Positions 28,534 through 62,363 of a stretch of DNA of 64,000 nt are shown in pieces. Under the pieces are notes generated by a model, which had not been told where the DNA came from, did no database searches, and saw only the letters and a program-made list of their open reading frames with translations. The translations under genes were made by a program, and so were the position numbers. Within the stretch, counting starts at the first letter, position 1; each line of letters opens with the position of its first letter. Where the stretch lies: positions 1 through 64,000 of the IMG/VR virus record IMGVR_UViG_3300025030_000038. One strand, written 5' to 3'. Source of the DNA: a virus.

Positions 28534-29181
28534 ATGTCAAGAACATGGACCGACACTCAGCTAATTCAGGCCGTAACCACGAAGTTTTCCATGTCAGAGG
28601 TGCTGAGGGAATTGGGGCTTTACCCCAATAGCAGTAATGCGAAGACTATCCAAACGCATATGGGGCGCTTAGGGTTAAAGTCCGAGCATTGGGCGGTACA
28701 CTTCAAGAAATGGTCAGAGGAACAACTCACACGGGCCGTGGCTACCCAATTTACCATGGCCATGGTCTTAAGGGAATTGGGGTTGTCCCCTGTTGGGGGG
28801 AACTACAAGACCATTCGGCAACATATTCTCCGGTTGGGTTTGAGTACCACGCACTGGACAGGACAGGGACACTTGAAGGGGAAAACCCACTCGTGGTCAG
28901 TTAAGATGCCATTGTCAGAGTTATTGGTTGAGAATAGCACCTATGGGACCAACCACCTTAGTAAACGTCTTGTCAAAGAGGGAGTACTAAGATATGAATG
29001 CTCTGACCCGGACTGCCTTTTGACCACATGGAAGGGGAAGCCAATTTCCTTGCACCTAGACCACAAGAATGGGGTCCCCACGGACCATCGCCTGGAAAAC
29101 CTGAGGTTACTGTGCCCCAACTGCCACTCACAGACTCCCACGTACTGTGGAAAAAATATAGGTGGCCCTACCGGGACTTGA
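28534..29181 (+). CDS. HNH endonuclease with two N-terminal repeats, ending in a tRNA gene
   Basis: The product is 215 aa. Residues about 4-53 and 60-108 are two similar units (WTDTQLIQAV / WSEEQLTRAV, SEVLRELGL / AMVLRELGL, KTI, RLGL...HW), probably DNA-binding helices. The C-terminal HNH core has CSDPDC, HLDHKNG, ENLRLLCPNCHSQ. The last 19 nt lie within the 3' end of the opposite-strand tRNA-Leu(TAA), and the TGA stop is the T-loop sequence in reverse. The same layout occurs at 61476-62096. Confidence 0.85.
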   Translation: MSRTWTDTQLIQAVTTKFSMSEVLRELGLYPNSSNAKTIQTHMGRLGLKSEHWAVHFKKWSEEQLTRAVATQFTMAMVLRELGLSPVGGNYKTIRQHILRLGLSTTHWTGQGHLKGKTHSWSVKMPLSELLVENSTYGTNHLSKRLVKEGVLRYECSDPDCLLTTWKGKPISLHLDHKNGVPTDHRLENLRLLCPNCHSQTPTYCGKNIGGPTGT

Positions 29182-29245
29182 ACCCGGATGCCTCGCGGCC
29201 TCCCGTTTTAAGTGGGAGAATGTCTGCCAATTCCATCACAGGGCC
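29163..29245 (-). tRNA. tRNA-Leu (anticodon TAA)
   Basis: On the minus strand the 7-bp acceptor stem (GGCCCTG with TAGGGCC), a loop CTTAAAA, long variable arm and T-arm with TTCAAGT are clear. The discriminator is A and no CCA is encoded. It is the 3'-most gene of the Leu array and its 3' end is overlapped by an HNH gene on the other strand. The anticodon stem has one A/C mismatch. Confidence 0.85.
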
Positions 29246-61388: not shown

Positions 61389-61475
61389 TGTAAGGTCTCC
61401 TGGGGAAGTTACTCTCGTGGTAGCCTAAAGGGTGCAGAGCCGTGTTGGCTATTCTGGCTATGCTACCCACAGGGT

Positions 61476-62096
61476 ATGAAACTCTGTCAAAAATGTGGTT
61501 CCAGAATCCCAGCCCATATCGTGATTGAGGGTAAGAAAAGGAACCTCAAGAACAGGCTGTACTGCTTTGAATGCTCACCCTTCAAGGCTCACAATACCAA
61601 AGTGTTGGCTCCTAGCCCACACTCTCCTACCCCCACCCCCACGGATAAGCGGCGGCATACATCTGACCACCAACCAATCCAGCAACTTACCTGTGAACGA
61701 TGTGCCAGAGTCTACCTCCACAATGTCAAGCATAGATCCGGGCATACTCTCCGTTACTGTAACAGTTGTATGGTCAACACACGTCGGTTTGAGCGCAAAC
61801 TCAAGTGTATTGAGTATATGGGAGGTGAGTGCCAGAAGTGTGGGTACTCAAAATGTTCACGAGCCTTCCATTTCCACCACCTCGACCCCTCTTTGAAGTC
61901 CTGGCAAATTAGCGGGGGCCATTGTAGAAAATGGGAGCGAGTCAAAGAGGAGCTTGATAAGTGTGTTCTCCTATGTTCCAATTGCCACATGGAGCTTGAG
62001 GAGGAACTGGAGGTACTCAAGCGAGGCCCACGTACAACAGTTCTCAATGCCCTAAAAAAAGCGATCTCTGAAAAAAGTGGGCACACTGGAACTTGA
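61476..62096 (+). CDS. HNH endonuclease ending within the tRNA-Ile(TAT) gene
   Basis: The 206-aa product has three ribbon-like C..C sets (CQKCGS, CERCARV, CNSCM) and an HNH core (CQKCGYSKCSRAFHFHHLDPS..., LLCSNCHMELEE). Its last 19 nt lie inside the 3' end of the opposite-strand tRNA-Ile(TAT), whose T-loop supplies the TGA stop. It could be a homing endonuclease linked to the intron in that tRNA. A weak promoter is possible near 61440. Confidence 0.85.
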   Translation: MKLCQKCGSRIPAHIVIEGKKRNLKNRLYCFECSPFKAHNTKVLAPSPHSPTPTPTDKRRHTSDHQPIQQLTCERCARVYLHNVKHRSGHTLRYCNSCMVNTRRFERKLKCIEYMGGECQKCGYSKCSRAFHFHHLDPSLKSWQISGGHCRKWERVKEELDKCVLLCSNCHMELEEELEVLKRGPRTTVLNALKKAISEKSGHTGT

Positions 62097-62363
62097 ATCC
62101 AGGACCTTCCGCTTATCTTCCTACTCCCAATTTCGTGGGCCGGGGCTCCCCGTTGTAGGCTGGACTATATCTTCACCATCTCAGGTGCCTGGGTATCTAG
62201 TCTCTACGGCGCTCTCCCTTTTCGGAAGTTCCCTCGGTATTGTCTCCAGCATGACCCGCTGAGAGTTCCACCGATATCCCCAGATCCACCTACAGGATTC
62301 ACGTTCCCCTGTAGGGCTCATACACTAAGGCGGATGCTCTGACCAAAACTGAGCTATGTGCCC
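62078..62363 (-). tRNA. tRNA-Ile (anticodon TAT), interrupted by a group I intron
   Basis: The exons 62327-62363 (37 nt) and 62078-62116 (39 nt) join to a full tRNA: acceptor GGGCACA/TGTGCCC, D-arm GCTC/GAGC, TCCGC/GCGGA enclosing CTTATAA, T-arm CTGGA/TCCAG with TTCAAGT. The intron is placed after U34 (CTT|intron|ATAA), consistent with the usual last exon U and a final intron G. CCA is not encoded. Confidence 0.8.
62117..62326 (-). other. group I self-splicing intron (about 210 nt)
   Basis: The minus-strand intron carries the conserved core AAGATATAGTCC (62162-62173) and a P7 partner GACTAG (62197-62202). It starts with AGTG after exon U and ends with G. It has no ORF. Small size and position in an anticodon loop are typical of tRNA group I introns. 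Splicing is inferred from structure only. Confidence 0.8.

Follow-up and report, generated by a model that had tools for sequence, protein, structure and literature searches.

Bacterial tRNA genes may be interrupted in the anticodon loop by ORF-less group I introns, such as that of cyanobacterial tRNA-Leu(UAA), and some tRNA introns encode endonucleases aimed at the tRNA anticodon region, including I-Ssp6803I, a PD-(D/E)XK endonuclease. Group I introns of phages tend toward conserved protein genes, as stated in a review of bacterial group I introns (PMC3984707) and again in 2025 in a study of group II introns in phages (PMC12350094). Collaborative homing pairs, composed of an ORF-less group I intron and a free-standing endonuclease gene beside the host gene, have been described in T3/T7-like phages, a cyanophage, and the ICP1 terminase, in which the host genes are protein genes (PMC10448857). 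SegB of T4 and T6 is a free-standing GIY-YIG homing endonuclease of the tRNA region that lies beside tRNAs in many phages and spreads or amplifies tRNA regions, with no favoured tRNA type reported (PMC13096335).

The locus described here (site 1) lies in a window comprising the first 64,000 bases of a 485,040-base huge-phage record, to which the public record LR745208.1 is near-identical. We consider it probable (about 0.7) that this locus represents a free-standing HNH homing gene with a tRNA gene as its home, probably paired with an intron. Similar to bacterial tRNA introns, the intron at site 1 is ORF-less and located in the anticodon loop, at a position comparable to that in cyanobacterial tRNA-Leu(UAA); unlike the bacterial ones, the introns of this study occur in phages, where tRNAs for Ile, Asn, Gln, Arg, and Leu carry them. 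The predicted nuclease resembles I-Ssp6803I and other tRNA-intron-encoded endonucleases in being putatively aimed at the anticodon region, whereas it is an HNH and not a PD-(D/E)XK enzyme and its gene lies outside the intron, that of I-Ssp6803I inside. Site 1 shares the layout of collaborative homing pairs, an ORF-less intron adjoining a free-standing endonuclease gene (window 61476-62363), but differs in that the host is a tRNA gene, that the endonuclease gene overlaps this tRNA and takes its stop from it, and that cleavage is a prediction. Like SegB, the HNH gene is free-standing and adjoins phage tRNA genes; however, the nuclease folds differ, as the site-1 protein is an HNH and not a GIY-YIG enzyme, HNH families each favour certain tRNAs, and the SegB study includes no intron partner. 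No description of the HNH/tRNA/intron triad was found in the literature searched, which includes only a minority of subscription papers, and our claim of novelty is limited accordingly.

The site-1 HNH gene and the split tRNA-Ile(UAU)

The last six codons and the stop of the site-1 HNH gene are the antisense of the 3' end of tRNA-Ile(UAU) (Table 1). Because the TGA ends at 62096 and the discriminator base of the opposite-strand tRNA is at 62078, the overlap (62078-62096) is 19 nt, exactly as the sequence-only reading had described it. The encoded protein matches phrog_2255 across residues 1-192 (E=6.5e-32), and the CxxC, HH, and CxxCH residues are invariant in the family-1 alignment, which together indicate an HNH nuclease domain with intact active-site residues; a Pfam search of this protein gave no match at E<=0.001.

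Table 1. Positions of the HNH genes and of the tRNA and intron parts that adjoin them; window coordinates unless G000 or L005 is given.
Feature	Position	Strand	Description	Basis
Site-1 HNH gene	61476..62096	+	free-standing endonuclease gene, 206 aa, family 1 / phrog_2255	
Stop codon of site-1 HNH gene	62094..62096	+	TGA, antisense of T-loop T55-C56-A57	
3' exon of tRNA-Ile(UAU)	62078..62116	-	19 nt overlapped by the HNH gene	ARAGORN, spliced-sequence check
Group I intron	62117..62326	-	ORF-less, 210 nt, between U34 and A35	covariance model; P1/P7/P10 from sequence
5' exon of tRNA-Ile(UAU)	62327..62363	-	last base U34	ARAGORN and sequence reading
Site-2 HNH gene	28534..29181	+	free-standing, 215 aa, family 2 / phrog_10822, stop codon within the T-loop of the adjoining tRNA	
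tRNA-Leu(UAA)	29163..29245	-	preferred neighbour of family 2, without intron here	
Site-3 HNH gene	G000 86718-87803 (L005 2818-3903)	+	two HNH domains, paralogue of site 1	

The site-1 tRNA was not reported by default ARAGORN and Rfam tRNA searches because an intron interrupts it. With introns allowed, ARAGORN called tRNA-Ile(tat) at c[62077,62363] with an intron of 210 nt, and the two exons, once joined, scored as tRNA-Ile(tat). From the sequence, P1 is formed by CUU of the 5' exon and GAG of the intron with the usual U34.G pair at the splice site, P10 by AUA of the 3' exon and UAU of the intron, and P7 by GACUA/UAGUC. A covariance model (R1) based on 20 phage tRNA introns from outside this phage, with the window sequence excluded, scored the intron at 67.9 bits (E=8.7e-19) as its sole match in the window and had no match in the rest of the huge-phage genome; the score with RF00028 was 23.3 bits, under the gathering score of 50. 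By the covariance model, the group I conserved core and secondary structure are present. The U.G at the 5' splice site, P10, the terminal G of the intron, and an intact spliced tRNA are likewise all present, suggesting that the intron may splice. At site 1, gene and intron occur side by side as a pair. The sequence-only reading had included neither this intron nor the third HNH site and the tRNA preferences of the HNH families described below.

Two further HNH genes occur in the same phage. At site 2, the protein matches phrog_10822 (E=2.7e-54), and the TGA at 29179-29181 and the discriminator base of tRNA-Leu(UAA) at 29163 give the same 19-nt overlap, in agreement with what had been noted previously. 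Common ancestry of the site-1 and site-2 genes was ruled out, as their proteins have no meaningful similarity. The site-3 gene continues past the T-arm and has its stop 41 nt into a tRNA called at 87763-87837, to which ARAGORN assigns an odd 4-base anticodon (ttta). Adjoining this gene, at about 87900-87975(-) of G000, a tRNA-Asn(GUU)-like sequence that ARAGORN did not report is recognizable by eye; tRNA-Asn is the favoured neighbour of the family of this gene. The paralogous genes at sites 1 and 3 have a similar leader right before the ATG, TTGGCTATT ... CAGGGTATG (window 61460-61478; G000 86690-86720), which is possibly a promoter or ribosome-binding region.

tRNA preference and stop positions across phages

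Scans of IMG/VR yielded 80 relatives of family 2 and 87 of family 1, of which 145 were retained after sequences at least 90% identical had been dropped. Of these 145 HNH genes, 48 (33%) have their stop within a tRNA, compared with 51 of 842 (6%) other ORFs in the same stretches (odds ratio 7.7, P=9e-18); when a tRNA lies within 100 nt downstream, the proportions are 48/86 and 51/160 (P=4e-4). The stops of other ORFs in tRNAs agree with the idea that HNH genes insert by chance wherever insertion is non-lethal, tRNA arrays merely offering gaps, in which case the cleavage target would be unrelated to the tRNA and the intron an independent passenger. Against such chance insertion, the two HNH families prefer different tRNAs within the same arrays: family 1 adjoins tRNA-Asn(GUU) at 33 of 89 flanks (12.6 expected) and family 2 adjoins tRNA-Leu(UAA) at 27 of 76 (8.8 expected; P about 2e-4 in both), where the expected counts, taken from in-locus shuffles, are about a third of those observed. 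Among loci that have the respective tRNA, tRNA-Asn(GUU) adjoins a family-1 gene in 32 of 39 and tRNA-Leu(UAA) a family-2 gene in 27 of 32, and family 1 is found beside tRNA-Leu(UAA) in 0 of 16. The preference persists among proteins with less than 60% identity; at less than 50%, where the loci of family 1 are too few, the preference of this family has P=0.05. Many family members adjoin intronless tRNAs, and the tRNA-Ile(UAU) of site 1 is not the favoured tRNA of family 1. At tRNA-Leu(UAA), HNH genes occur on both sides and in both orientations, a pattern that favours repeated insertion over a single event passed on by descent. HNH genes placed against specific tRNAs look like a recurring tRNA-targeting mobile unit and not a one-off oddity.

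The codon antisense to T55-C56-A57 is always 19 nt from the discriminator base because the lengths of the T-arm and acceptor are fixed, so that any stop there gives an overlap of 19 nt; the equal overlaps at sites 1 and 2 are tRNA geometry plus chance. Across 3,141 tRNA-phase combinations (1,047 phage tRNAs in three phases), the first antisense stop is located at this codon in 193 (6%), and the tRNAs of this phage give 7 of 102; two T-loop ends out of three within one genome are therefore mildly unusual. In relatives, convergent HNH-tRNA overlaps (n=6) measure 4, 17, 25, 27, 32, and 68 nt, none ending at the T-loop, and a convergent overlap at a tRNA-Gln (L085) measures 13 nt. In co-directional cases, the commonest stop is U8-A9-G10 at the tRNA 5' end, with 20 of 42 overlapping stops exactly 10 nt in. 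The HNH gene ends at whichever stop its open frame reaches first in the tRNA. The earlier proposal that homing genes repeatedly insert beside the T-arm therefore holds for tRNA genes, in many phages and with two unrelated HNH families, and fails for the T-arm, since the overlap on whose conservation it depended is not conserved; insertion specific to the T-loop is ruled out by the 4-68 nt spread and by the geometric explanation of 19 nt. The TGA is antisense to T55-C56-A57 as that reading implied, but the TTCAA that it regarded as conserved is not universal, being carried by only 209 of 1,047 phage tRNAs.

Co-transfer and intron-bearing tRNAs

Searches with the neighbouring genes and DNA of site 1 found no close relative of the huge phage, and an empty allele of site 1 was not found for this reason. 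In isolated Pseudomonas phages, the suggested comparison of genomes with and without the gene gave a presence/absence difference at an otherwise collinear site. In phages M5.1 and KoPa-4, tRNA-Cys and tRNA-Gly flank a family-1-type HNH gene that ends in tRNA-Gly; VCM and Kremar have these two tRNAs only a few bases apart, without the gene, and in REC they are separated by a tRNA-Phe. Between M5.1 and KoPa-4, tRNA-Gly is identical (74/74) and the HNH genes are 90% identical, while the flanks are 70-76% identical; between M5.1 and VCM, the flanks are 85% and 93% identical (93% downstream), and tRNA-Gly only 78%. The shared tRNA-Gly and HNH gene of M5.1 and KoPa-4 despite their divergent flanks indicate that the HNH gene and the overlapped tRNA moved together, which speaks further against insertion by chance into array gaps.

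IMG/VR was scanned for a 16-base intron motif independently of any HNH genes; of the 81 matches, 62 are located in tRNA genes. Nine of these tRNA introns have a family-2 HNH gene within them, and for 15 the tRNA is adjoined by a gene of family 1 or 2. HNH genes adjoin 14 of 44 short-intron tRNAs, compared with 16 of the 197 tRNAs of these loci that lack an intron (P=1e-4); the corresponding counts are 9/30 and 15/189 after de-duplication at 90% (P=0.0016), and 4/17 and 15/178 at 80% (P=0.067). The site-1 arrangement, in which a convergent HNH gene overlaps a tRNA with an intron, is also found at the tRNA-Gln mentioned above and in a tRNA-Leu cluster (L234/L236/L259/L269/L285); an intron-bearing tRNA-Asn followed by a family-1 gene is present at L133 and L160, and L252 and L270 are further loci that combine an intron-bearing tRNA with an HNH gene. 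Family 2 also resides within introns of tRNA-Leu(UAA) (L058, L062, L225, and L346). Chance insertion gains from the weaker intron-HNH link after strict de-duplication and loses from the residence of family 2 inside tRNA-Leu introns; we regard it as unlikely.

Several calls were revised in this survey. The ARAGORN assignment 'Thr(tgt)' at L133 was rejected, as the re-read exons are those of tRNA-Asn(GUU), and ARAGORN introns without a core match (e.g., L152 and L140) were not accepted. The intron of L160 is a strong match in two analyses, yet was not listed by one cmscan. At L245, L250, and L257, the tRNA-Leu introns contain family-2 genes that are antisense to the intron.

Proposed homing of the gene and its intron

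The preferred reading, homing of a free-standing HNH gene whose home is a tRNA gene, has support from the HNH homology, the placement of the gene, the tRNA preference, the occupied/empty polymorphism and co-transfer in relatives, and the presence of the intron. The nuclease would probably recognize and cut its cognate tRNA gene in a co-infecting phage, and repair would then copy the HNH gene together with the overlapped tRNA, a transfer of the kind seen in relatives. Lying flush against a functional tRNA and often lacking a stop of its own, the HNH gene borrows the first in-frame stop of the tRNA, of which the T-loop TGA is one example. At site 1, collaborative homing is the most likely form of this process: a single HNH cut in a tRNA lacking the intron would spread both the gene and the intron. 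That one cut site serves both the HNH gene and the intron is a possibility that we place slightly below even odds.

Alternatively, the nuclease may have been recruited to a phage function, e.g., the amplification or renewal of tRNA genes to counter anticodon nucleases of the host, as reported for SegB in T6. Cleavage by SegB drives the amplification of tRNA-Tyr against Septu (PMC13096335), and the flush overlap binds gene and tRNA as one cassette; nevertheless, SegB is a GIY-YIG enzyme and the site-1 protein an HNH enzyme, sites 1-3 showed no tandem copies of tRNA and HNH gene, and the patchy presence and absence suggests selfish turnover, which makes recruitment rather unlikely. Insertion in the manner of an integrase, at an attachment site in the tRNA whose end the element would restore, is highly improbable: tRNA 3' ends are classic integration sites, yet the tRNA 3'-end sequences occur only once in the window, without a duplicate fragment, and in relatives, the empty and occupied junctions place the HNH insertion between intact tRNAs.

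Beyond site 1, homing at tRNA genes leads to a broader and more tentative proposal. HNH lineages specific to tRNA types (tRNA-Asn and some others in family 1, tRNA-Leu(UAA) in family 2) might team with, enter, or leave anticodon-loop group I introns of the same tRNAs; tRNA arrays might then be a main arena of the joint spread of introns, endonucleases, and tRNAs, with site 1 as a caught intermediate. The origin of mobile group I introns from an intron and an endonuclease that were once separate is a long-standing question. Three stages are found around one kind of tRNA gene, with the HNH gene beside an intronless tRNA, beside an intron-bearing tRNA, and inside the intron, and such loci would make this origin directly testable in phage crosses. 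These loci may also help to account for the strong mosaicism of phage tRNA arrays.

Intron-split tRNA genes escape default annotation, for example in the cultivated jumbo Agrobacterium phage Atu_ph07 (L345, 111574-114744), in which a tRNA-Leu(UAA) at 1494-1855 carries a 278-nt group I intron (181 bits) and no annotated feature covers the tRNA-Leu exons and intron core. The family-2 HNH gene of this phage (AUZ95219.1) stops 1 nt short of a convergent tRNA-Leu(UAG). In a viral tRNA array, an RNase P RNA-like match was observed at L155 4480-4797(+), scoring 84.6 bits with RF00010, under the gathering score of 100. The tRNA intron of another phage contig (L043 4964-5740(-)) encodes a different protein that, by eye, resembles PD-(D/E)XK endonucleases of the I-Ssp6803I type.
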